A DNA stretch of 64,000 bases from Paramacrobiotus metropolitanus (taxonomy: Eukaryota; Tardigrada; Eutardigrada; Parachela; Macrobiotidae), in the NCBI RefSeq assembly GCF_019649055.1, contig NW_026570230.1:496001-560000 (forward strand), in the 5' to 3' direction. The position numbers and the translations under genes are program-made. Positions 6,547-57,192 of the stretch are shown in pieces. The notes below the pieces were generated by a model, which had not been told where the DNA came from, made no database searches, and saw only the letters and a list, made by a program, of their open reading frames with translations. Numbering within the stretch: the first letter of the stretch is position 1; each line of letters starts with the position of its first letter.

Positions 6547-9049
6547 TCAGGCGTCAACTTCAAATGGTACAACATGCGGATAAGTCGTGCAGAGTTCTTT
6601 ATAAAGCTTGCTACAGTGATCACGAGTGGGAATGTTATCCGTATCATTATATACAAATCCCATTATACACAGACACGCCATCATGTCCGATACAGCCGAG
6701 CACTGCGCAAAGGCTTCTAGCGCCCGTTCAAAATAGTTCAACAAGGTCTCCGCCCATTCAGGATTCTCCAGGTTTTTCTCTTTCTCGCTGAGCAGCAGCT
6801 TCCCTTTAAGATACCACACTCGCCCTTCATCCTGTGCGTATTTACACCCATTCAGCCCCGGAAAGCACACATCCAACGCGGCAGCCGCCTGTCCCATCTC
6901 GTCCAGTTCAAACCACACATACGCTAATAACAGATGCACTTTCCACTTCCACAATTCGTTCGGGTGATCTTTCACGAGACCCAGCGCTTCGATGACACAT
7001 TTCAGCGCGTGCAGTCCGCACTGACAGCGCAAAAAGATTTCCGCTTTCAAAAGCAATAAACGCAGCTGCAATTGTAGGGAAAACGCGGAAAGGTGAGCAA
7101 CATGGACACTGCCTTCGCTGCCACTCTTCAATAAGGCATCCAACAATTCCAACGCCGATTTCGGACTGCAGTCTTTGTAATACAGCAATTGCGCCTTCCG
7201 AACGGATGCTTCAGTGACGTTCATTCGACCGATTTGTTCGTTGAGGATTTCGCATTCTGAATAATCCTGCCGGTTAAACGCTAACTGATACTTCCAAAAC
7301 AGCTCACTTAATCCCCAAATCTTCCAGTCACCAAAACGACTCGGCGGAAATCGTTCACGGCAATACCGCTGCATAATTTCAATGGCTTTCTGATCGTTGA
7401 ATCGCACCGCGTGCTCCAAGATCATACTGGCACACAGCGCGGCGGAATCCGTCGCCAGGGGAAAGCGGCTGTTTTCCGGTCGGCAGAATAACTGCACACA
7501 GCCCTGCGCATAGACTGTCGCCACCTCCTCCACACCGTACAGCTTGAAGAACGTCGCGCGTCCCGAATAATGCTGCATCAAGGAGATCCGGTTCAGACTG
7601 TCATCTGTCTGCTCCACATAGTCCAGATGCTTAACCACTTTCTTCACCTCCATCCCCAGGAGCGAATCAAACCGGGCGATCAACACAGCGAACTGCGCGG
7701 CCACTTCGGGAAATCTAGCAAAATCACCCAGCGAGGCGCCACGAAAGAGCTTTTCATATTGATTATTGTTGATTTCCAGGCACGCCAGCCAGAACATGGC
7801 ATGACTGAGCAACTGGATATCGCTTTTCTCCTGGGCGAGGTAGATGCACTCGCGCAGGGCTTGCAGTGCCAGTTCGTGGTGGCCGGCGTCATAATGCATG
7901 ATACACAACTGCAGGTTTGTTTCGCCGGGATAATACGACACACCCGCACCGTCCGCCGTCTTCTCTTCCAGCAGACAGCGGGAGGCGAAGAACTTATACA
8001 GTGCATCGACGGCCTGGCTGTAGTCTTTGGCGTGGACGGCCTGCAGGAAGCGGACATAGTTTGCGGATTCGATGGGCGGCTGAGCGGTGAGGAGTCGCTG
8101 GCGGGTAGCGTTATCGCCAGGATTCCCGCTGGTTAGAACCGGATTACGCTGCATTAAGGCAGATTCTTGGGCGAGAAAATAACTGGACTGGGTGGCGGTC
8201 AGCATATTCGGGACATCACTGCTTCGGTCTGCTTTTTCAAATGTGTAGGCACTCTAGAAACGACATACATTTTTTGTTGCACCATATCATACAAAAAAAC
8301 CGTATTTTATTATCCAATTTGAACCAAAATAAGGCAGCTGCATAAATAAACACCTTCACAATAAATGAATTAAATAATAAATTTACAGTAATGTAGCACC
8401 AGTAAACAATTTACTGCTGTAATTAACTGTTAACAAGACAAAAATTCCAAAATCAACTAACCGTTGAGTCGAGATCCAATAAATAATGAAAGCCTTGCCC
8501 GATATAATCAAGCAGATGCGAGCTAAATCTGTCATATCCCGTGTAACTCAGTTCATCAAAAAGAATCTTCGTATTCCGCATGAAAAGCGAGCACAGCGCC
8601 TGCTCAATCCTGAGAGATTGTAGCAAGGGAGGGAAATTGATATCGACATAGCGTCCCGTCTCCTCCTGATCATCCTTGCGCAGCATCTCCACAACTCGGC
8701 GAAACAACAACAAATGCGCTCGCACCAGCACACATCGTATCAGACAGATCAACGAGGCAAAGTCACGTTCCGGGGAACGCGCCAGATGTTGCAGCAGTTT
8801 CAGTGTGTCGAAAGACTCTTTTCCGGAAATAACGAACTTGTCTGGCTCCACACCGTGTCTGCTTAAGTAGTTCTTGCAGTCTTCCCGCTCCTTCTCCTTG
8901 GAGGGTGAATTAATTTTCACATGGATCATGTCCGGCGACAAGTCACGCCGCAGTCTCACATATTCGCGGATCAGCACGGCGACTAACAGTTTATACGGAT
9001 TGAGGGTCTCCTTTGGTGGAACAGCGGTGGAACCAATAATGCTGTCCAT
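6547..9049 (-). CDS. ANAPC5: anaphase-promoting complex subunit 5
   Basis: APC5 is a TPR scaffold subunit of the APC/C ubiquitin ligase that drives mitotic exit. Two exons join in phase 0: 9049-8462 and 8253-6547, with a 208-nt intron. The product is 764 residues, against about 755 in human. The N-terminal block TLNPYKLLVAVLIREYVRL aligns with the vertebrate N-terminus. SSYFLAQESALMQRNP, then ANYVRFLQAVHAKDYSQAVD, mark the conserved centre, followed by helical TPR-like pairs to the end. An in-frame TTG lies just upstream of the chosen ATG at 9049, but ATG gives the best match. It converges with RPB11 and diverges from SAE1. Confidence 0.95.
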
Positions 9050-9754
9050 AGCCAATGTGATGAGAAAGGATAGCCTATAGTCACGGCGATAGTGATGCCT
9101 GATCCCGCAACCGTATCAAATTTTTAGGTTGGAGAGAATTCCAGTCATTTCCAACACCGAACATCAACTGCAAATCATGGAACATCAACTTTCCTGCGCG
9201 ATTATCATGCGACGACGACAGCGATCTCTAGACTTCGCGTGCGATCTTTAGACTTCGCAACTTGTTGTCCTTAAAACGTAAAAGTGCCGTAAAATGGATG
9301 ATGGACCAACGTGAGTCCAACGAAAACGGTAAAATAAATGGAAAGCAGAAAAAAGGCAAGCATTTTGGTTCACCGGTGGGGTAGCGAGGCCAAATGCAGC
9401 ACCCTAGGGGTGCAAGTACTTAAAATGCGTACTGTGTTATCCAGTATTTAAGACTTTTAAGTGATGGGAAATTCGGTAGTCTCAATATTAACCGCCACGA
9501 GGAGAGCGAACTGGCTAACGAGGCCGCTCACCATCGTGCCATAGCTCGTCTCAGCAGTCCAAATTTTTTTCGATTTGCTTACACACGGATCGTGTACACT
9601 GTAACCCGAATTTTTCTCTGCATTTCACGCGGACTTTTAGTTTTGATACAGTTGTCTCGTTTCAGGAAGAAGAGTTTTCCATCATCCCTTAGTTGCGGCT
9701 TGCGGTTAATAGTTTCGTTAGCCCTACTTCACTGCATTCTGCAATATCTTTTTC
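9050..9754. other. divergent upstream region shared by APC5 and SAE1
   Basis: About 700 bases separate two divergent housekeeping genes, so this is probably a bidirectional promoter. I see no clear TATA box and no recognisable gene. ATGGATGATGG near 9293 opens only a short frame. Confidence 0.5.
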
Positions 9755-11339
9755 ATGGGTGTATTCGTATCCAAAACGAACGGCACCGTCATGGAAGTGG
9801 TTCAGTCTGGCAAAAAGCGTCCACTGGAGGACTCAGCAGAATCGTCGCAGGAGACAACCAAAAAGCCTAAAGGAGAATTGGATCGCTTCCGTCCGACGAA
9901 CCTCTACGACCGTCAGATCCGCTTATGGGGATGGGAAGCCCAGCAGCGCCTGATGAAATCCCGCTTGTTGATGTACGGCCTAAACGGCACCGGGGCCGAA
10001 GTGCTGAAGAATCTCCTCCTCGGCGGTATCCGCTACATCACGGTCCTCGATGCCGCCAGTGTCACCGAGCCCGATCTCTCCACCAACTTTTTTCTCCGCA
10101 AACAGGACGTCGGTCTGAATCGGGCAGTGGCCAGCGCGGACCGTGCGCGGGTCCTCAATCCGATGTGCACGTTGGAAGTTTTAGACGGCGATGTCACTAT
10201 CATCAACACGGAACTCGTCAAACACTTTGATCTCGTCCTGGTCAACGGTGCCAGTATCAAGGATGCCGTGCACATCGCGGGTGTGTGCCGCTCCCTGCAC
10301 ATTCCCGTGTATATTTCCCAGATGCTAGGGTTCCATGCCTTCTTCGTCAACGATCTTAACCAGCTGGATTTTGAGATTCCGCCGAGTAAACCGAATACCG
10401 CGGCGGCCCCCAAGGCGGATGCCAAGAGCAACGGTACCAAATAACTACCAATGCCACTTTAATAAGTTGAATCGCAATTTCAAACGCTTCACATTTGAAC
10501 CTTTAAATCGTATCATTCCAAAACCAAACCGGGCTTCGAGTGACTGCAACATTTCGAAATTAAAATTTTATTTTTCTTTAATTATTATTTAATTAATTTT
10601 GGCTTGAGAAATTGGTCGAATTAAACCCTGATTTAATAAAATGCAGTGAAATACCGGTAACTGTTAAAATGATGATGTTTCTGTTACTATTAATATTTCA
10701 TTTTAATTTCTTTGTTTTTAAGAGAAGAAATATTCGAAAAATAAATGGATTCATTTTTAAATTTCGTTTATCTCGAAATCTTGTTTTATTTTAAAAGCAG
10801 TCCAGAACTGTATGATTTTATAAACTCTAGGTACTACGGCATCGACCAGCAAGATGTCCAACGGTGAAGCGGAAGTTTGCACTTTTACGGAGGATAGCGT
10901 CAATACTGAGCCGCAGACCCTGCACATTACCGTCACGCCGCTGGAGACGCTGCTATCATCCGCAGCGGTGCAGCGCTCTGGTGCGGCCTGTCCCATGCCC
11001 AAGCGCTCGCTGGGCATGAAGCGCATTGATCCGTATTTGAACATGGAGATGGTGCTGTTGTTTGTGGAACAGTATGGACGCTACCCGGCCTACCAGACCG
11101 TGGAGGATGATCTGCCGAAATTGCTGGAGATTGTCAAAGGGCTGCAGAAGGACGGCGACACCCGGGTGCTGGAGCCGGCAGAGTTCTTGAAACCGGATAC
11201 GAATTTCGCCTGTGCAGTGTTCGGGGCGACGTTGGCGCAGGAGCTGATTACGGTGCTGACGCGCCGCGGGTATCCCATTTTTAATCTGTATTATCTGGCG
11301 GCGATGGATGCGATGGGCAGCCGCGAGTATGTCCAGTAA
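9755..11339 (+). CDS. SAE1: SUMO-activating enzyme subunit 1 (AOS1)
   Basis: SAE1 is the non-catalytic half of the SUMO E1 with UBA2, catalysing SUMO adenylation in the nucleus. Two exons, 9755-10433 and 10831-11339, join in phase (AAC G|GT) to give 395 residues. A lysine-rich NLS-like leader precedes NLYDRQIRLWGWEAQQRLM, then the Rossmann motif LLMYGLNGTGAEVLKNLLLG and the ThiF-like core (SVTEPDLSTNFFLR). After an acidic linker, the second exon gives the C-terminal half: VLLFVEQYGRYPAYQTVEDD and CAVFGATLAQELITVLTRRG, both conserved in SAE1. No catalytic cysteine domain is present, as expected for this subunit. The protein is about 50 residues longer than human SAE1 because of the leader and linker. 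ATG at 9790 is an alternative start. Confidence 0.95.
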
Positions 11340-12079: not shown

Positions 12080-14225
12080 TCACATCACTTGGATGTGGGC
12101 TTCTTCGACGTCTTTTCGACAATAGGGTTTGCCTTCCACGTTAAAGTATTCCATGCCGGTTCCCATTGTATACAAAGCATCTCCGCAAACCTGCATAATA
12201 AAAACACTTACCTTAGATACGCATTAGTCATTACCAAATCTTTTACACAATTAGAATTTTTTGAAAATGTCTTATCCGGCATCGGGCTGGCAGCACACAC
12301 AAAAATATTATCCTTAAGTTTTTTACACTTACGATAATTAATATCTGCGACACTAATACAGAATTCTATGTACTAGTAACTAGTAAGGTATTTGTGTACT
12401 TATATCTATACTTCTATGTAATTGTACACTGCTTTAAATTAATCCTGCATAGTTGCCGGTCTCTTTTTCTTACCGCGCACACAAAGCAGCTGGGATGATA
12501 GTACATTGACATGGCCTTCAGTTTGTCGCCTTCGATATAACCATTGCATGCTGCACAGTGAGGCGCAAATTTATCCCGATAGCAGTTATCGCACATTGGT
12601 CCGTCGTTCGGCAACTGGAAACTGCCGGTGATCCGGTTCTGGCATAAATGGCATTTAAAGCAGTCCACGTGCCAATCTCGTTGCAACGCTCCCACACTCA
12701 CCGATTCCTGTAAAATTAATAAATTAAATATTTTACTGCAGTTAGATAACAAAATCATTATTTGCTGACTGACCTCCGTTAAATGGATATGCTTATTACA
12801 AGCGCAGCACGTTCCCGAATACACGCTATCGAAGCAGTTGCGATGGAAGTGCTTATCATGCAGCGCCAAATGCCGGTCATCATTGATGACCTCCGAACAG
12901 ATAGCGCAATGCTTCTCATCCACATCATCCCGGACGTTAGTTTCCCGGTACCATGGTTGATGGAATTCCTGATGGAATCCTGGTGGGCGGTATTCTTCCA
13001 CCGTGCGACCTATAAACATGTCGGCTGGGCAACCCACCGCTAGCGGCGGTTCCATTAGTGGCGGCGGCATGGCCATGCCGGAATCCGGTTCGGTCAGTGA
13101 CCCTTGTCCGTGGTAACCGTCGGCCACACTGGACCGGCGGCGCTCCGTAATGTACTTTTCCGGAATATGATTATCCGGAGCCGGTTCCGACGCCAGCGTT
13201 GCGCTGGCCATAATAGCCTCGATGCCATGTAGACTGTCGCCGACACGCTCGTCATACTGTGGCCACTCGATGCGACCGTTGCCGTGCACGACAAAAGCGT
13301 CCTCTTGACCGAGCTCCACTGTGTGATGGAGCTGCTCCGCTGTTTCTTTATTCCAGGCAATCTGCCCGTCGTCTTTGACGTCGAACGTCATTTCGTGATC
13401 GGATCGAACCTGCGTTTCCGTTTCCGGTGCTTGGGCGTGGCCGCTGTATCCATCGGCGACACTTGAGCGGCGCCGCTCCTGTGACGCATGATGTTCATCA
13501 TGGGCGTGGTCGGTCGATACTCCGACGACATCCTCAGATGGCGCGTGGTGCTCGGCGTTGGTGTGGTCATCGGATGACCCGGTGGCATCGCGGACAAAAG
13601 TCTCCACCGCTTCCACAATGTCGTTGATCCCGTCGCGGGCTGCAATGTACGCCGACTCGACTATCCCATGTTCGTTGGCAGCCGCTGGCTGATCGTCATT
13701 GCGGACGTGGGTGGTCTCATCCACGCGACTACTCCGTCGTGATGCCGGGTGCTCCTTGACCAGGCTTTCTCGGCGCGAGCCGGAATTCCCTGTAATAATT
13801 TCTTCATGATGGCTCTCGTGATTGCTCTCATGGTGACCTTTAGCTAGGCTTTCTCGGCGAGAACCAGCATGGTCTGTAACAACTTCTTCATGATGGCTTC
13901 CGTGACTGTCCTCATGGTGACCTTTAGCCAAACTTTCCCGGCGCGAACCGGAATGCGTTGTAACCTCTTCATGATGACTTTCATGACTTTCTTCGTGGTG
14001 GCCTTTGTCCGGTACGCTCGCACGACGTTCCTGGTGGTCGTTTACGCTTTCGCGTCTGGACGCTGGTTTGCTTCCTGAATGATGCTCGCTACCGGTTATC
14101 GTATCTCCGATGTCGCGCACGAAAGTCTTCACTGCATCCACAATTTCCTCCAAACCGTATTCCGGATGATGATCATGACCCGGCTCGTGTCCGTTAACGT
14201 TATGCTGCACGTCATGCTCGGCCAT
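12080..14225 (-). CDS. LIM-domain protein with histidine-rich disordered N-terminus (LIM-A)
   Basis: Three exons join in phase 0: 14225-12774, 12707-12474 and 12190-12080, giving 598 residues. The 66-nt first intron has no stop in frame and reads through, so an unspliced reading inserts 22 residues. Residues 1-400 are low-complexity, rich in His, Glu, Asp and Ser, with three near-identical 27-28 residue repeats (KGHHE..SRRESL) and several RRxS sites. Two related helices, LEEIVDAVKTFVRDIGD and INDIVEAVETFVRDATG, flank the repeats. The C-terminus has a half LIM (CAIC...HFHRNC) and two full LIM domains. The last LIM is completed only by exon 3, which ends EYFNVEGKPYCRKD. LIM domains are zinc-binding protein-interaction modules; this last one is paxillin-like. 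The N-terminus is unknown to me. Confidence 0.85.
13758..14006 (-). repeat. three coding repeats of about 28 residues in LIM-A
   Basis: Residues 74-156 consist of three units of 27, 28 and 28 residues, each starting KGHHE and ending GSRRESL. They are nearly identical at protein level and similar at DNA level, so the expansion is recent or the sequence is constrained. Confidence 0.85.
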
Positions 14226-17200
14226 TCGGGTTGCTTTATAATAGAAGTTTAATAACTGCTAAAAAGTGTTGCCAAATGTCGTCTGTAATCGATCAGGTGT
14301 CGGCGCTATCTGAAAACGATATGAATGTATTGTAAACGGAACCGATCACGGAAAGATGTTAGCCAAAAACGGATCAATAATAACGAACGCGTGGTAACAT
14401 ATTATCGAGCTAGACGCGGTACACTAAATATAAAGTAAACATCGAACCAATGGAAATGGTTGTGTCTGCGGGATCATGTTTTAATGTGACAAGTCATTTG
14501 CATAACTGTCTATGTAGGCGTAGCGACAAGCATTTCGTGGCATTGATTAAACGATCATTCTGCCAAATCAGCAAACTCAGCATGTGCATCATATAAGGAT
14601 GAGTCAAATGGTTCACATCCTGAACCTTCCTTAAGAAAATTTACTCCTAAAGGGATTTTTGTTACTTACGACGTAATTTCTCATAAACAATTAGATGCTT
14701 AACATTCATACCATTCATTAGTTAAAGTCGCTAAACACGTTTTTGGTTCAGTTAAGCGCGTCGTAATAATGCAGCAGCAGGGCATCAATTCTGCATTGAT
14801 ACCGAACTCAGATATAAGCGCAAAATAAATTTGCAATATGCACGTCTGATGGCTACTTTATGATTTAATCAAAAGCAAAATTTTACGTTTTTCAAAAACA
14901 TATTCTTGTTCCGTCAGCACAAGCGGTTGTTTGTTGTAAACTTGTAATAGGTAATAAATAAATTTTTACGGGACTGCGTATTGCACAGAAAATTTATTAA
15001 TGACAAATATTGAGGAATGATTACACAAGTTATTAGTAATCCGTTCTCTATCGCTGCTTCATGGTAATGACACCCATGGTCAACGTACTTTTCCACAAGA
15101 AATTCGACGTCAACACTAAATTTCAAGTGTTGGTTCCACGTGAGCAGTATTAACCATGCGAGATACAATGGCTTATGATGGTAGCAAAATACTAGAGTAG
15201 TAATCGCACTATATAGTTGCTAACGAATAACGATCCCGTGTGACAAATTGTCCCGAAACGCAACCAAAAGAATGACTCATATTCTCCAACAGCCAGCAGT
15301 ACTTATAATTGAATTATGACACGCGCAACAAATTGCAGGCTATCCTAATACGAAATGCGTAATAAACTATTCACACAAGCGTCACAGTGCTGCAAAGAAT
15401 AATTAATTGTAGCAGTTATTACAATTTGTAAATGTAATATGCAATGCTGTACAATACATATGGTAGCCCAATTACAAAATATCTACATATATTCATAATG
15501 TAATACACAAGTTGAATACTGACTCGTGGGTAGTATCAGCTGTCGATTTGCAATACAGGCACAATGATACACTCCCAAGTCCCAAGCAATATTAATTGTG
15601 CAGAAAAAGCTCACACAGTACCCAACAGAATATCGTAAGCTAATCAGTTTCATTTACAAAAAGCTCCAGTAGTGCTTACTACTTACAGCACTTACCATTA
15701 GTACTTACAGTTATTAACTTTAAAAGTTGCACCGGCTATTCATAAACTTTGGGAGGGTCAGGATTCTGGAATAAGTGGATGTAAGTAAACGTGGCAAATT
15801 CTTTGTTTAAAACGTTTTAATTAAAACAGTCCAGCCAAGTGTATCGGTATGTCGCAAAAGCATGCATTAAAATAACATCAGCATGGTCCAGCGTTACAGA
15901 CGTCTGAGCGTAATAAATTGGCAAGTTTGCTTACGTTTTTCATACGTCGCATAAGAGCGGGTAAAAAGGTCTATAGAGAAATTTCTGCCGAGGTGTCGGT
16001 GTTTATTGAAGAGAACCTTATGAGTAAGCACGAAAGGAGTAAGGGACGGCTTTCTCCAACTGTTTATACAGCGGATATAGAAATGAATTTGTGTACAGTT
16101 GGATAAATTATATTTTGCGGCTTATACACGCCACAATAGTGTGCGGCTGTACCCGGAAAACGGATAAGCAGAAAATTGGATACTGTGCACTTATATCGAT
16201 CTGGATGTTAGATGTTATTGGCAATCGTTAAAATGTATTGTCATCCTATCACGTGGCTTAGGATCGGCAGCATGGGCAACTCCAGGGGAAGAATTTTTTG
16301 CTGGCTCTTCTGAACTTGGTTGAAAAGGCAACTTTAACGCATTATATAAGGACGAAAATAGATTTGCATTGTAAACTTGCACTACTTGTTATTTTTTTGT
16401 TAAGTGCATGACCTTTTACGTGTGACGGTGCAACTGCATCGTTATACAAATTTCCGCTATTTATAAAACATTGTTTTGTACTGCGTTAGACTTCCCGGCG
16501 ACGATTTCAGTAAACATCTGTATGTATGTATACGAGTATCAGCTTATAAAATATGGAAATTCAAATTCTTATGGTGTTGCACATTAAAAAAACTGAAAAC
16601 AAGAAGCTTCTTTAAACTAATTTAGATAAATCCAACATAAATCAAATTTACATAAATCAAACAGCTCATCTGGCTGTTGCCATATTAGCCAAACGCGCGG
16701 GAACATACGTAGAGATACACATCTGCGACGGTTGTTGTTTCGCTGCCGTATTTTAATATTCATAGTTTTCCACAACTTCTATAATACTTTATGTCAGTTT
16801 TGCTGTACGTAGTCAGCTGCGTGCCCATTAGAACATAGTCAGCGTTTTGGCGATGTTGTATCCCATTACTTGCCAGTTCTTACATTATGGAATTTTTGCC
16901 GGTCATGATCCTGATCCTTCGCGCATAAATGTTTTGCTGTACCAAACTTGCCTGCATTACACTTCGGCGACATGCTCATATTATGCAAACATTCTCTCTT
17001 GTGTGTTTTCTATAGCCGTTGAAAAGGTAATTTTATTTTGGTTTCACGGTTTATAGTTTATGTTTACACGGCTTTGTTTGTGTTGGTACACAATCAAAAA
17101 CGTTACATAACTTGCACAATTATAAATGTGTGTACCAATGTTATCCTGATAAGAAACCGAGCCGTGGTAGTTAACGTTAAGACAGCATGCAATATATGCA

Positions 17201-17741: not shown

Positions 17742-17749
17742 TATAAAAA
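17742..17749 (+). promoter_or_regulatory. TATA box of the secreted peptidase gene
   Basis: TATAAAAA lies about 140 bases before the chosen ATG. A capsite-like CAGTCG about 25-30 bases downstream would give a leader of about 110 nt without an intron. The spacing is typical of a TATA-driven gene. Confidence 0.55.
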
Positions 17750-17884
17750 GCTGTTTCATTGGACAGTCGACTTATGTAAAGATCGCGAGCATTTTATCTG
17801 GTGCAGAAACAACAACCCAACTGTGATTTTTTGAATTTACGTATAAATATTACGCTATCTGCATTCCCATTCGATGATTCGACT

Positions 17885-18553
17885 ATGTTTCAGAACATAA
17901 AGCTTTTATTTTTCATCGCCGGTTTACTGCCAGCAGCAGTACTGTCAGCACAATGCTCGCAAAAGCTGCAAGTTGGTAGTAAAGGTGACTGCGTCAAGGA
18001 GGTCCAGCGTAAGGTGGGAACCAGTGCCGACGGGATTTTCGGGCAAAGTACACAAGCCGCAGTGAAAGCCTTCCAGCGCCGGCATGGCCTGGAAGCCGAC
18101 GGGATCGTCGGTGCAAATACATGGGCGGTCATTTATGGAAGCAGCGGAAGCGGAACCGGAAGCGCTCCGGGAGGTTGTGGATGTGATGCCAACCGCGCCA
18201 CACAGTGCACTTCCGGCGCCACACCGGGCGCAAAAAATCTGGCATCGTATTTGAAGAATAAATTTGGCGGTAGAACGGAAATCTTTAATTGCCGGAATGT
18301 CCGTGGAGGCAGCACGGTGTCGTTGCACGGTGAAGGTCGCGCGGTGGATTTCTACCCGAGTAACTTATCCAATGGACAAGCCGTTGTTAATCATTTGAAA
18401 AGCATTGCCTGTCAGAATGGAATACAGGAGGTAATTTTTAATCGTCAGATCTGGACGAAAGGGGGAACCCTCACCTACAAAGGGCTAAATCCGCACACGG
18501 ATCATATCCATGTTGGATTAAACAAGTGCGGCGCGCAAAGTTTTAATTTGTAG
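17885..18553 (+). CDS. secreted peptidoglycan-binding / M15-type zinc peptidase, probable HGT
   Basis: This intronless ORF encodes 222 residues. Residues 1-22 are a signal peptide (hydrophobic core LLFFIAGLLPAAVLS). Residues 27-85 form a PG_binding_1 domain (LQVGSKGDCVKEVQRKVG, then ADGIFGQSTQAAVKAFQ). A Gly/Ser linker leads to a catalytic domain at about 105-215. This has the DD-peptidase zinc signature HGEGRAVD (H148, D155) and DHIH (H207, H209) typical of M15-like enzymes that cut peptidoglycan cross-links. Eight cysteines suggest an extracellular fold. The architecture is bacterial, most like actinobacterial secreted enzymes, yet the gene sits behind a eukaryotic TATA box between animal genes. 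I infer horizontal transfer and a digestive or antibacterial role; neither is shown. An in-frame upstream start at 17801 would bury the signal peptide. Confidence 0.85.
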   Translation: MFQNIKLLFFIAGLLPAAVLSAQCSQKLQVGSKGDCVKEVQRKVGTSADGIFGQSTQAAVKAFQRRHGLEADGIVGANTWAVIYGSSGSGTGSAPGGCGCDANRATQCTSGATPGAKNLASYLKNKFGGRTEIFNCRNVRGGSTVSLHGEGRAVDFYPSNLSNGQAVVNHLKSIACQNGIQEVIFNRQIWTKGGTLTYKGLNPHTDHIHVGLNKCGAQSFNL

Positions 18554-19210
18554 TATTAAAACTACGATACTAGAATGTACTTAAATTTCTGTTTTCAGAT
18601 AATGCAGTAGTTTCTTTGGGTCATGTTATTGATTTTAAGCAAAGTTTTATTTTGTTAGACATAACATTATCGGCATATTCGGTTGTGCCACATACATATG
18701 TGGCATATACTTTGACCAGGATTTATAATTTGTACGAGTTCTCCAATTTTGTAAAACGAATAAGTAATATTAACTATATACGAGTACAAGTGTTTGGCGC
18801 ACTTTGAAATTTTAAGCAGTACATCGCGTAGACATTTCAACTGGCCGACAATGACATAACAAATTATGCATCGATTTAATAGAATACTACAGAAACAATA
18901 CAACCACAAAAAACCATAGAGGAAGCACAATTACTTTGCCGAAAAAAATGTGTGACAATTATTACGAAAGACCCTTCCCAATAAAACCATTACAATCTAC
19001 AACCATAAAACGTTAAAAAAGGGTTGGTACAGTGGATCGTACTATAATTACTGTCAGATACTGCCACTTTCACGTAGAAGAAAGAGAGCCTAAAAGTTCA
19101 TGGAAAATTATGAAAAATTAATCAGTTCAAATCCACCAAAATATGATAACTGCAATAAAGAGGGAAACCAATACATAATAACCAAAAATATGCGATGCCG
19201 GATGTATGAT
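18554..19210. other. convergent intergenic region
   Basis: This AT-rich 3' flank lies between the peptidase gene and MARF1. AATAAA occurs near 18980. One TATACGAGTA word is at 18777-18786. No gene is seen. Confidence 0.5.
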
Positions 19211-22200
19211 CTATCCAAAATTCATAGCCAACCGCGTGGAGACTACCAATGGACGAGCCGGAACAGCAACAGGCACTTCCGCCGTCGACGCTTCTCGGTC
19301 ACTGACAACCGGACTGGCGTCTTCCGATGCAGCTTCCTTTTCGGCAACAGAAGCCTTCGCCGCTTTTTTCTCCAGTTTTCGCTGGCGACGACGCTCCTTC
19401 TTAGCCAGTTTGGCGGCTGCTGTGTCGGATGCCGTCGAAGTCGACGCTTCCTGATCATTGGCACGTGTGCCAGCGTCTTCAGTCTTCCCCTCCTTGGTAG
19501 CAGCTTCCATAGCTCGTTTTCTTTCCAAATACTGTTGTTGACGAAGCTTGTTTGCCTGTTTGTGTGTGAGTTTGATGTTAGATGCCGTCGAAGCCGACGC
19601 TTCCTGGTCACTAACACCCGTGCTGTCATCTTCCGGTGCAGCATCCGTTTTGGCAGCAGCAGCCACCTCCGCAGCCTTTTTTTCCAGTTTTCGTTGGGCA
19701 CGACGCTGATTCTTGGTTAGCTTAGTACTGGCTACTGCGTCGGATGCCGAAGATGACGGACCGGTAGAAGCAGGCGGGCTATCCACGGGGATAGGCTGGG
19801 CTGGCTTAATGCGCACACTCCAGTTTCCATTCGGCTGGACAAGAACCTAGGAATTCAAGTTTTGGACTGTTTTTGATTTTTTAGGTGTGGTTTTTTTTAC
19901 TGTACTTTGCATTATGGTCTGAGTCTTCTGTGCCGGGTTTCCCATGTACACAAATAAGTACCGGTAGTAATTTCCATAATCGTTTAGTAAATTAGGCTTA
20001 TTTTGATTTATCCGTTAGTGACATTAAAATTCTTAGGATAAATTAATCATGACCTATGATGTGCAATCCGAATGTGATGACACGCACTGGCCACTGACTG
20101 ACTAAGATTTATAGGCAGTTATTAAACTGCAATTTTGCGCATTTCGTTGATGCGCCATTGATTATGTGCTACAAAATGTGTAGAGAGAACTAATTCATCA
20201 GGCCAGAAGTTAAAATTATGCTGCAGATACAATACCTGGAAAATATCGCTGAAGTTGAAAATGAGCTCATCCCAGCTCGCACATCCATAATCATCAAACA
20301 TCAGCTTCTTTCCCGGTCGAAACGTCTCGCTAAAAATTTGACGGATTTCCTGAAGCCCGTATTCTTGCTTTCGTCCAGCAAGCGTTCGGCCAAACTCTTG
20401 GAAATCTTCGCGACGCTTCTCCAGTGTCAGCTGGATGAAACGATCTTGTCCAATCTTAATTACCTGTAAAAATGTGGACGATAAGAAAGAAGCCAGGATT
20501 TCAGTTACTAAAATAAAAAAAAATATTTCGCATACTTCCAAAATTTCCGGCAGCGTAGTAATTAAATCCACCAGCTTGGTCCATCCATATTTTCGCAGCG
20601 TTAGCTGCTTCTTGAACATTTGATGGTAACTTGCAGGAAAACGAATTAGATTCAGGCGATATTTAGGGGAGAAATTCAGTAAAGCGATCACTTCTGCAGT
20701 CAGAATATGCAGCGCCGTTCCCTTATTAACGACTGCTTCTGCCGTATCGCCAGCAACAGCGTGACCTTTCGGTCGGCCTGTAAGCGGACCATGGTTAGAC
20801 GATTTAACCAAGTTAGATGATATTTGCTAGGCTGCTGCAGATACATCACCAATCCGATACACCTGTGTTTCCTGTGCCAGCCCAGCAAAAACTTAATTCA
20901 TTAATACATGATACACAACCTGCAGAACTGCTGATGCAGCCCACTTACGAATACACCATAAAAATTTAGTACAAACAACGCGAGCGTAACAGAAAACATT
21001 TGGAATACATATGAAAACTCTCCACTTCCTACAAATATCCACACTTTCCTCAATTTTTGGACTGATGTGTGACTGTTTCTAAATATCAGTGATAAATTTA
21101 AAATAACAGAATGAATACGCGAACGAGAATTTCGCTTCCTCGAATTATAAAATAAAACGGCGTTGCACGTACTCGCACGGTCGATTAGTACCGGGTACGT
21201 GAAACAAACAAGGGATACAGCAAAACAGCCAGCAGACCAAACAGAAAGCAGCAAGCGCATCACGTGCACGCACTCATCACATTTTATGGCAAGAATTCCA
21301 GGGCAGGTGAAACAACAGGGTGCAAAAAAACTAGGATGAGCGTAAGCCACATAGCTACCATAAAAAAGCCATCACATAAACAGGGTAAATCTAAATAGTT
21401 CCAGGAAAATTGTCTATAAACTTGGTTAATTCGACTATCTCCTGACAATCTATAATAAACTAACTCATAAACAGTAAAATTACAAATCTAGTGAGCAGGG
21501 CTTGTCCGGATTATCACACAACAGATAAAAGTTCAAAGTAAGCCAAAAGGTTCGAACAATAAAACGACAAATAAACTAGAACGCACCCGTCACTTCTGGC
21601 GCCAAATAGGGAACATCTATTCCATCGAATAGGTCCTCTAAATGGCATACTCCATAGTTTTTGGCCGCAAAAGGCCGCCCCATCACGTCACGATAGCGTT
21701 CGGCAAAGTTAGCAGCTGTAATCGAGCTCGGCGGATATTTTTCCTGCACGAGGGCCAAATCCGCCTTGAAACGGCGCTTCTGGGCTTCGTGCGTCAGCGT
21801 CACAATACGAGAAGCTCCCAATCCCACCACCTACAGATAAATCACTTGAATGACTACAAATAACGAAAGGCAAAAAACTGCTTTATTTTCCCACTGATAA
21901 CGCTAACTTTATACAAACCTGAATATCTTTCGTCACATCCTGCAATTCTCGCAGCAATACATCGTGGTCTATGTAGCGAGTACGGGACCCACTTCCCAGA
22001 CCGATAAGAGCGTGATAGCGGTCCATGAACATCTGCACAGGATACGCAGCTCTATCGGTCGATGTCAAGATTCCCGCAACATCCTCAGCAAAGTCGTTGT
22101 CTTCAGTCGAACTGCCTGCCCAAACAATTACTCATAAACTTTTGAAAATATGTAACCGATTTGACTCTTACCATTTTCTACGCCGGTTCGTAAGATTAGT

Positions 22201-53466: not shown

Positions 53467-55139
53467 ATGTCTCTGGACAATATTGAAATTGCTATTGCCA
53501 CGTTAACCACGTCCGGCCCGCCTACTATGGAAAAAGCAAAGGAATCCCCGACGCTGCTCAAGTTCGAGCCAGGCTCCATGGTGTGGAAAGCATGGCGTTC
53601 CCGTTATAACAATAATGTTAAAATACAGGAACTCACCACGGAGGACGATCAAAAGCGGCTGCTATTGGACTCACTAGGAGTGGAAGCACGTGAGATGTTG
53701 TTCGCCATGTGTCTTCCTCAAGATCCCGCAGAGTTAAAGCTGGATGAAGTCATGCCCATCTCGAGCATGCATACGTAAAGAAGACACTGTAGTCAACAGA
53801 ATGGGCGAACTTTTTCCTCCTGAAGCAGGAAGTTGGTGAAACCCTTTTGGATTTTGCCAATAAGCTGCGGAGGAAGGCGGCGTTGTGTTCTTTTCCGGCG
53901 GACGCGTTGGAGGGGAACATGCGCGCGGCCTTCCTGAACGGAGTCCAAAATGAAGCGACGCAGCGCCATTTGCGAACCAAGGAAATCGATGTTCTGGCGA
54001 AAGCGCTGGATATCGCAGAGCAGTATGAGCTGGCGCAGCTGAAACGGACAGCCACTACTACTGAAGTGGCGAGGATCGGCGGCGGCCAGAAGGGACGTTC
54101 GGGGCCACATCCGAAGGGACGTAACGGTGGTACTCGGCCTGGGCGTGGTGACGGAAACAGTGGAAAGATGGCCGGCAGCAGCGGCGCATGCTACGCGTGT
54201 GGCGGGAAAAGGCATGTGAAGGCCGATCGCTGGGCAAAGGAAGCGACGTGCAGAAAGTGCGGCAAGAAAGGTCACGTCGCAAAGGCGTGCAAACCTGCGC
54301 CAAAGGGCGACAGAGGCGGCGGTGGTCGTCGGACGTGGACAATGCAGGAAGACTTCGACGTCCTGGCTATCGGTGACGAAGTGGAAGGATCGATTCGGGT
54401 ACCGATCACCTTGAACGATTCCCGTGTGTCCATGCTGCTGGATACGGGATCAGGTGTGACGATTATTACGGCGAGCACGTGGAGACAGATCGGCTCGCCG
54501 AAGCTGACGCTTTATGCCACACCGCTGCGAAGTTTCACGGGCCATCCGATCCAGGTGATCGGAAGTTCAATGATGCCGGTGGTATATGGACGGAGAAGGA
54601 AGTCACTGCCCGTCGTCGTCGTAGCCCGTGGAGGTGACGTGCTGGGACGCGACTGGATCAAAGCGCTAGACCTCAATCATCTGAGTCTGAAAGAGCTGCA
54701 AGTGTCTGCGGTCTCAAAAGTCACCGCTCGTGCAACTGTCCAGAGCATCCTGGATTGCCACAGCAGCGTATTTCGCGATGAACTTGGGCGCTGCAAGGAA
54801 TTTAAGGCGCACCTCTACTTGAAGGAAGGCGCGAAGCCGATATTCTGTAAGCCATGGACGGTCCTGTTCGCCTATCGGGACGCAGTGGAGAAAGACCTAG
54901 AGCGCTTGGTGGAAAGAGGGATGCTCACGCCTGTGGAGCATGCGGAGTGGGCTGCACCCATTGTTGGAACGCAGAAGCGAGCCGCAGACATCCGCACGTG
55001 CGCTGATCTGAGCACAGGATTGAATGACTCGCTCGACGTGCAAACCTATCCGCTGCCACTCCCGATGAACTGTTTGCCAAGTGGAACGGGGGCGACAAGT
55101 TCAGCAGCCTGGATCTGGCAGAAGCGTATGCGCAAATAG
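53467..55139 (+). pseudogene. gag-protease-RT start of Ty3/gypsy element
   Basis: Frame 53467-53778 begins MSLDNIEIAIATL and looks like a gag capsid start. After a frame break the second frame continues through a capsid-like helical region and two zinc knuckles near 54190-54290: the first CxxC...H has Asp in place of the last Cys; the second (CRKCGKKGHVAKAC) is intact. The aspartic protease motif LLDTGSGVTII is near 54440. The RT fingers region begins after 54780, then the frame breaks near 55070. Confidence 0.85.
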
Positions 55140-55860
55140 AGCTGGACGACGAAAGTGAACAACTTGTTGTCATCAACACGCATAAAGGTCTGTTCAGGTA
55201 CAACCGTTTGCCGTTTGGAGTCGCAAGCGGACCAAGCATATTCCAGCAAATCATTGAGCGCATACTGCAAGACTGCGAGGGCGTGCCGGTGTATATTGAC
55301 GACATTATCGTCACGGGCAAGACGGACGAGGAACACCAGCGGAACTTGGAAGCGGTGTTAGAACGGCTGGAGAAGTACGGACTACGCGTGAAACTGTCGA
55401 AGTGCAGATTCATGCAGGAATCGGTCGAGTATCTGGGTTTTGTGGTGGATCGCCGCGGGGGACACATATCCCAGGATCGCGTGAAAGCACTAGTGGACAT
55501 GAAGATGCCCACCAACGTCAGTGATTTACGTGCTTACTTAGGCATGGTAAATCACTACGCCAAGTTCGTACCGAACCTGTCCGCAGAGTGCAGTCAGTTT
55601 CACTGCCTATTAAAGTCCGGCGCACCATGGGAATGGACGACTGAGTGTGCGAAGCAGTTTCAAGCACTCAAGGAAGAAATCGTCTACGCAACGTTCCTGG
55701 TGCACTTTAATCCCGCAATGCCGTTGGTGCTGGCAGCGGATGCGTCGCAGTATGGTGTGGGAGCGGTTCTGTGTCACCGTTTTCCCGACGGAACGGAAAG
55801 GCCGATTGCATACGCGTCTAAAAGTCTGTGTCAGCGGCGGAAAAGAATTACGGGCAAATT
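55070..55860 (+). pseudogene. reverse transcriptase and RNase H segment
   Basis: After the break the frame shows LPFGVASGPSIFQQII and the RT active site VYIDDIIVTG (YIDD box) near 55290, followed by the thumb (YLGFVVDRRG) and the RNase H start (PLVLAADASQYGVGAVL). It breaks again near 55830. Confidence 0.9.
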
Positions 55861-57192
55861 GAAAAAGAGGCACTTGCGCTCGTCTACGGCTGCAAGAAAT
55901 TCCACCAGTACGTGGCCGGCAAGGAGTTCACGCTGTTAACGGATCACAAGCCGTTACTGAGCGTTTTCGGCAAGCGGAAAGGTGTCCCAGTGGTCACGGC
56001 CAATCGACTTCAGCGGTGGGCGCTGCTGCTCATGGGATATACGTTTTCCATAGAGTACCGCCGCACCGAGGAGTTTGGTCAAGCGGATGGCCTCAGCCGA
56101 CTGCCGCTCCACTCCACACAGCTGGAGAAATACCCAAACCTGGGGATGGACAACGTAGTGAGCGCGCTGCATGTGGAAAGTGCCGAAAACATACCCGTGT
56201 CCGTGGAAGATATCGCAAGGGAAACGGCTGCCGATGCGGAGCTCCAGGAAGTACGCCAGTGCATCAGTCGCGGCTGGCCGGAGTCCGTAAGCGATCGAAT
56301 GCGACCGTACAAGAAGGTACAGCATGAGCTCAGTGTACTGAATGGCTGCGTGTGCTGGGGATCGCGCACGGTAATTCCCGAGAAGTATCGTGCCAGGATA
56401 CTGAAGCACCTACGCGCAGCACACATGGGCGCCGGGAAAATGAAAGGTGAAGCGCGAGGCTACTGTTGGTGGCCATCGATGGACAGGGACATCGAGCAGG
56501 TCGCCAAGGACTGCCGAATATGCACCGAGCGCGCGGGTGAGACAGCGAAAGTTCCGCTAGCGCAGTGGTCGGTGCCCGACGCCTCCTGGAAGCGCGTTGA
56601 CATGGACTTTGCCGGTCCATGTCGAGGTACGATGTTGCTCATAGTTGTGGACGCAATGTCCAAATGGCCCGAAGTGGTGCAAATGAAGCACGCAACGACG
56701 AAAGGAGTGATGGAGACGCTGCTCACGATGTTCAGTCGTTACGGTGTGTGCAATGAAGTTGTGTCGGACAACGGCACACCATTCACTTCGCAGCAATTTG
56801 TGGATTTCTGCAGCAAGTATGGCATTAAGCACACCAGGACGCCTCCAGGTCACCCGCAGTCAAACGGTCAGGCCGAGCGGTACGTGCAGACCGTTAAAGA
56901 CGGTGTTGCGAAGTTGATGGCCGACGGCCATGCACTGCCGGATGCGTTGCGCCAGTTCCTGTGGCGTTATCGAAGTGCGCCACATGCAACGACTGAACAG
57001 TCACCGCCCGAACTGTTTATTGGACGGCCGAACTTTTGCCGATGTTCCCACTCCATCCCCACGACGCCGGTCGAACGCGGAAAATTTTCGGATACCGTGA
57101 GGGAACCAAATCAGCGGATCCTGAGCTTGAGGAAAACTACGAAAGTATCCACTGACCGTACCTGCCGGAACCACTGCCATGATCACCTTTAA
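55828..57192 (+). pseudogene. RNase H end and integrase of Ty3/gypsy element
   Basis: The frame resumes in RNase H (QIEKEALALVYGCKKFHQYV, LLTDHKPL), then integrase: a zinc-binding HHCC region with His pairs near AAHMGAGKM and Cys pair DCRIC, then the catalytic core with Asp in VDMDFAGP, Asp in VSDNGTPF and Glu in SNGQAERYV. After about 57030 the frame loses similarity, so the integrase C-terminus is probably shifted. Confidence 0.9.

Follow-up and report, generated by a model that had tools for sequence, protein, structure and literature searches.

The tardigrade Paramacrobiotus metropolitanus carries a gene whose product joins a peptidoglycan-binding (PG-binding) domain to a zinc-peptidase domain. 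The gene lies on the plus strand (17885..18553) of a 64,000-nucleotide stretch of contig NW_026570230.1, which we refer to as “the window”, and encodes, in a single exon, a peptidoglycan-hydrolase-like protein of 222 residues with three genomic matches. It is resident in the animal genome, and phylogenetic trees place its product in a clade with nematode proteins. We consider it probable that the gene encodes a secreted, disulfide-stabilized peptidoglycan peptidase, and that it goes back to an old bacterial or phage capture that was kept and duplicated.

A PG-binding domain joined to a VldE-like zinc peptidase

The coding sequence is one uninterrupted open reading frame (ORF) from the ATG at 17885 to the stop codon at 18551–18553, which bears out the intronless ORF of 222 residues in an initial annotation of this DNA. 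That annotation also proposed a signal peptide and a bacterial-type pair of domains, PG_binding_1 and an M15-like zinc peptidase; the signal and the pair are both recognizable. First, the N terminus reads by eye as hydrophobic and of the secretion type (MFQNIKLLFFIAGLLPAAVLSA, then QC), with a probable signal peptide at residues 1–22 (17885..17950, plus strand; low predicted local distance difference test score, pLDDT). Second, PG_binding_1 (PF01471) matches residues 47–82 (18023..18130, plus strand) with 55.7 bits against a Pfam cut-off of 23 (E 5.5e-15), and fold matches of this part (5nm7, 6tci) span residues ~20–92. Third, residues 98–222 (18176..18550, plus strand) form a zinc-peptidase domain with the predicted fold of the VldE-like or ARB-07466-like C-terminal domain (PF26571). 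PF26571 is a precomputed assignment on the window protein (P0001) and is not among the matches in a Pfam scan of that protein; equating PF26571 with the VldE family is based on fold and profile matches, not on the Pfam page.

The zinc residues H148, D155, H207 and H209 stand exactly where they had been claimed. The H148-x6-D155 half-site (SLHGEGRAVD; 18326..18349, plus strand) is invariant across 32 hand-picked aligned proteins. In the other half of the active site, H204-T-D206-H207-I-H209 (18494..18511, plus strand), the three histidines are invariant in the same set and D206 is conserved in at least 90%; P0044, outside this set, has Y at the H207 position. H148-D155 and H207-H209 match H-x(6)-D and H-x-H, which the available part of PMC6027127 gives as the defining zinc motifs of LAS or MD-clan DD-peptidases. 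The label “M15-like” holds only at the level of the clan. The catalytic domain falls outside the standard M15 families of Pfam: Peptidase_M15_3 (PF08291) scores 16.5 bits with the whole protein and 18.4 with the domain alone, below its cut-off of 23.2. Extensin-like_C (PF06904) scores 25.4 bits with the whole protein, against a cut-off of 25.4, and 27.1 with the domain alone.

Some Hedgehog proteins raise the idea that the domain has lost its enzymatic role and now serves as a binder or signal. We think this quite unlikely here, since the window copy retains its zinc-site residues and its wall-binding domain, and Pfam HH_signal matches just two members among 15 of the family, with E no better than 0.047. 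A scan of the window protein up to E 10 does not list the Hedgehog signaling domain (PF01085). Kinship with Hedgehog was considered and rejected, the likeness being limited to the fold.

Tardigrade and nematode proteins form a clade

Relatives were sought in three protein listings, which cover the best 120 of 256, 801 and 3,380 hits, respectively. Among the matches listed, the named relatives nearest to the gene outside its own species are nematode genes, and at least ten named nematode relatives occur, in Mesorhabditis, Ditylenchus, Plectus, Acrobeloides and Aphelenchoides. The domain family as a whole is found in phages, Actinobacteria and several nematodes. A non-exhaustive search of genome_contigs (84,980 species genomes) with just two peptide patterns gave 23 bacterial loci of 25–57% identity, which by title are actinobacterial (21), Kapaibacterium (one) and Myxococcales (one). 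IMG/VR contributed 31 loci (two contigs are listed twice) with 32 catalytic ORFs.

A domain profile matched 185 proteins or ORFs, 178 of which entered a first tree. With these 178 rows, FastTree recovered one 24-row clade (support 0.956) made up of both tardigrade proteins, all ten nematode proteins and 12 unnamed sequences. From the 203 domain rows available later, 95 were chosen by hand (P0047 had no qualifying domain). Eight were omitted as duplicate, truncated, frame-broken or X-containing (P0224, L028, L023, P0085, P0205, P0133, P0136 and P0057); among these, P0224 and P0133 have two of the three cysteine marks described below, and P0136 has one. The remaining 87 rows gave, in IQ-TREE, a 23-row clade (100/91) of two tardigrade, eight nematode and 13 unnamed proteins, with no named bacteria inside it. 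The less selected 178-row tree shows the same grouping, and the clade stayed intact when 28 viral rows were added (SH-aLRT, the Shimodaira–Hasegawa-like approximate likelihood ratio test, 88).

Two candidate sources were rejected on these trees. A close bacterial donor was not found among the 19 of 23 bacterial loci that were placed, none of which falls inside the clade with the tardigrade proteins; similarly, none of the 28 viral rows placed falls inside the tardigrade–nematode clade, as a viral vector might. Forcing the tardigrade pair to join the phage/actinobacterial clade was rejected by the approximately unbiased (AU) test (p 0.0057), as was forcing all seven PG-bearing rows to do so (AU p 0.003). 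A bacterial or phage origin of the fold family is supported.

Cysteine marks and a possible domain exchange

Three cysteine marks accompany the clade: CGC where the domain begins, AC ahead of GIQ and CGA near the end. All three occur together in 19 of the 95 rows, every one inside the clade; taken singly, CGC is present in 19, AC in 21 and CGA in all 23 of the 23 clade rows. Unlike the window protein, the 32 viral ORFs from IMG/VR have none of the marks, and the named bacterial rows likewise lack them. P0039 and P0137 have WGA at the CGA position. The marks support what would be shared descent of the tardigrade and nematode proteins, and the pattern fits a possible adaptation to the oxidizing secretory pathway.

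Around the catalytic core, clade members differ. By pattern, 7 of the 23 rows have a PG-binding motif and 5 have cysteine-rich repeats, which suggests one core combined with add-ons that vary from member to member. The seven PG-bearing rows have two PG-domain cysteines in common (C24 and C36), and the PG-binding domain stands ahead of the peptidase in six unnamed metagenome relatives (P0004, P0005, P0006, P0124, P0129 and P0224). The repeats of the clade resemble, by eye and in visual likeness only, those of rusticalin and other animal and fungal repeats, as given in the available parts of PMC6339383 and PMC7379824; a pattern of our own for rusticalin-type cysteine-rich repeats finds none in the window protein.

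These data bear on whether the gene reached the Paramacrobiotus lineage privately, from a bacterium or phage and independently of the nematode genes. Several facts would fit such an event: a PG-binding domain is listed for none of the ten named nematode proteins (some are partial); neither Hypsibius nor Ramazzottius is represented in the best 120 of the 256, 801 and 3,380 hits, their proteomes possibly not being covered; and Hara et al. 2021, in the part available, count 112 Paramacrobiotus genes acquired by transfer once the lineage had separated from Hypsibioidea, a list that may include the window gene. However, the tree and the cysteine marks unite the tardigrade and nematode proteins, and both AU tests argue against joining the phage clade. 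Because of the nematode grouping, with no named bacterium or placed viral row in the clade, we regard a transfer private to the tardigrade as improbable. The horizontal transfer proposed initially thus survives as a remote origin, but not as a private tardigrade event. The initial annotation had named a tree position inside an ordinary animal family as grounds for abandoning its proposal, and this is half of what we see: the protein groups with nematodes, in a clade with 13 of 23 rows unnamed.

Residence in the tardigrade genome

The genome searched for copies comprises 169.8 Mb in 533 contigs. We take Paramacrobiotus sp. TYO and P. metropolitanus to be one strain. For TYO, the available part of Hara et al. 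2021 reports 684 scaffolds totaling 170.5 Mb, assembled from Nanopore and Illumina reads. Three copies of the gene lie on three contigs of 2.10, 1.29 and 1.32 Mb, with the window copy on the 2.1-Mb one. Four of the ten neighboring ORFs scanned have Pfam domains: anaphase-promoting complex subunit 5 (ANAPC5; 6547..8253, minus strand), ThiF (9722..10444, plus strand), LIM (12414..14258, minus strand) and OST-HTH/LOTUS (20122..20826, minus strand). The long contig, the three copies and the eukaryote-type neighbors support the location in an animal genome that had been claimed.

A domain pair typical of bacteria, in a single exon, is what a recent bacterial contaminant or a misassembly could look like. 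Nevertheless, contamination is extremely unlikely because of the three genomic copies and the ANAPC5, LIM and LOTUS neighbors. Further points against it are that one copy was duplicated jointly with the LOTUS ORF, that the cysteine marks are common to nematode proteins, that the two intact paralogues have reached saturation at synonymous sites, and that the coding G+C of the gene (0.51) is inside the range of four neighboring ORFs (0.42–0.55).

The two other copies differ in age and state. The copy on contig C29 (P0003; C29:272838-273491) is intact and 58% identical to the window copy. Synonymous change between the two is saturated (proportions of synonymous and nonsynonymous differences, pS 0.73 and pN 0.28), which would indicate long-held constraint. 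The copy on contig C30 (C30:1061449-1062105) belongs to a 3.6-kb duplicate of window positions 17844..21440 that contains the gene and the LOTUS ORF and is 95.6% identical over 3,628 columns. It has an in-frame TGA shortly past the zinc aspartate, and its annotated model, LOC129588485, ends there. The C30 and window copies differ at 17 of 657 coding and 27 of 659 intergenic sites, and we judge the block duplication to be recent.

The TATA box of the initial annotation is present as a word, TATAAAA (17742..17748, plus strand), which is a consensus match only, 143 bases upstream of the ATG; a second such word, TATAAAT, lies at −43. The intact C29 paralogue has no TATA word across the 250 bases upstream of its ATG, so the TATA box is not a feature of the family, and its use is unproven. 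The border of the C30 block, 41 bases before the ATG, excludes the word at 17742.

Other PG_binding_1 genes of the genome were considered as bacterial imports and rejected: of eight matches, three are the window gene's family, and the remaining five each have a Peptidase_M10 match no more than a few kb away, like ordinary matrix-metalloprotease genes. Beside the window gene, a lysine/alanine-rich minus-strand ORF includes direct repeats of ~155 bases that are 77% alike (19286–19749). Elsewhere in the window, 53793–57192 is G+C-rich, with long plus-strand open frames of 448, 303 and 456 aa.

Proposed function and origin

In the mechanism that we propose, the protein would be secreted and stabilized by disulfides. 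Its N-terminal helical domain would dock on peptidoglycan, and its C-terminal VldE-like zinc domain would hydrolyze a stem-peptide or cross-link bond, with H148, D155 and H209 as likely zinc ligands and H207/D206 as likely catalytic residues. Likely targets are ingested or invading bacteria, in the gut or the body cavity; digestion and defense are indistinguishable from sequence. The clade that the gene shares with nematode proteins and with environmental sequences of no named source nests among enzymes of bacteria and phages. This would reflect an old capture from one of these two groups, perhaps via another eukaryote, after which the gene would have been kept and duplicated. According to the available part of PMC7056985, no NF-kB homologue is detectable in tardigrades, and intracellular components of Toll signaling and most genes of the Imd pathway are likewise missing, which makes their handling of bacteria an open question. 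A secreted wall lysin that tardigrades share with nematodes would, if true, be a concrete and testable effector.

Several observations weigh against this reading. Four of the 23 clade rows (P0044, P0144, P0127 and P0139) miss one or two cysteine marks, and CGA, without the other two, is also found in P0046, P0135 and P0136, immediately outside the clade. PG-first order is shared by a protein from elsewhere, P0245, named Candidatus Binatia. The 13 clade rows with no named source could include non-animals. The alignment of the catalytic domain is short, at 131 columns for 87 rows, and drew a warning from the program; in the tree with viral rows the forks within and just beyond the clade are weak. 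The two tardigrade paralogues are not sisters; uniting them costs 22.5 log units and is not rejected (p 0.177). A single clade of the seven PG-bearing rows is weakly rejected (p 0.034), against a simple story; this outcome would fit either an ancestral PG domain or two separate gains of it. The match to VldE is 20–22% identical. Finally, the C29 paralogue has asparagine at the D206 position of HTDHIH, so its activity is doubtful, and it may be altered.

The rows nearest the clade also leave room for transfer between eukaryotes, in which protists, fungi or some other animal served as donor to the nematode and tardigrade lineages separately. P0046 and P0135 are placed just outside the tardigrade–nematode clade (P0136 is absent from that tree). 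These three unnamed metagenome proteins have a C-terminal hydrophobic tail, and P0046 and P0136 also have a rusticalin-type cysteine-rich repeat; all three look eukaryotic. The listing of relatives is patchy, and the nearest outside rows (P0046, P0136, P0039 and P0137) are unnamed but eukaryotic-looking. On the other side, the unnamed rows are of no known source, the data leave the direction unsettled, and the forks there are the weak ones noted above. We consider such transfer a serious possibility, though short of an even chance. A tentative and rather doubtful extension of the old capture that we favor is that a single capture, predating the nematode–tardigrade split, of a wall lysin of phage or actinobacterial type founded an ecdysozoan family of secreted lysins. 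Tardigrade-type members would have kept the PG domain, some nematodes would have exchanged it for cysteine-rich repeats of a defensin-like kind, and most other lineages would have lost the family. The family also provides a case in which a bacterium-to-animal capture can be dated with the help of its cysteine marks and its apparent domain swaps.

Comparison with known systems

The best solved fold for the catalytic domain is the C-terminal domain of VldE from Streptococcus pneumoniae (PDB 9flm, 9flh, 9fln). VldE is bacterial, was deposited as “LysM domain-containing protein” and, unlike the window protein, has no PG_binding_1. The order of domains in the window protein, PG-binding and then zinc peptidase, is that of 1lbu, presumably the zinc DD-peptidase of Streptomyces albus G. 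1lbu matches residues 27–210 (phmmer E 1.6e-6) and is rank 1 in Foldseek, but the pair of domains does not superpose as a unit (whole-chain rmsd, root-mean-square deviation, 12.6), and in the family-profile search its match is limited to the PG part.

Among phages, the best annotated match is a protein of Arthrobacter phage 1191A, annotated merely as hypothetical, whose catalytic domain is 46% identical to residues 105–213 of the window protein. Its gene lies immediately upstream of the holin gene, which suggests a lysis enzyme. The phage-type relatives read have the catalytic domain first and PG-binding repeats after it, the reverse of the window protein. The nematode ARB-07466-like proteins share the catalytic domain, the cysteines and the clade with the window protein, but no PG_binding_1 is listed for them; four Acrobeloides proteins have cysteine-rich repeats in its place.

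Among the matches listed, at the level of title and start of abstract, no paper on the family in animals, tardigrades and nematodes included, was found; ARB-07466 and ARB07466 as literature terms gave 0 papers, and neither “carboxypeptidase” nor “peptidoglycan” occurs in the available main text of the 2024 P. metropolitanus transcriptome paper. Rusticalin, from Styela rustica, is likewise an animal protein with an MD-clan peptidase. According to the available parts of PMC6339383 and PMC7379824, its peptidase is of proposed phage origin, and is likened to the L-alanyl-D-glutamate peptidase of phage A500, and rusticalin is expressed in hyalinocytes (blood cells); unlike the window protein, it has cysteine-rich repeats, and these parts mention no PG-binding domain. 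The use by animals of captured bacterial wall-cutting enzymes is already known: aphids, according to the available part of PMC9116674, acquired amiD and ldcA.
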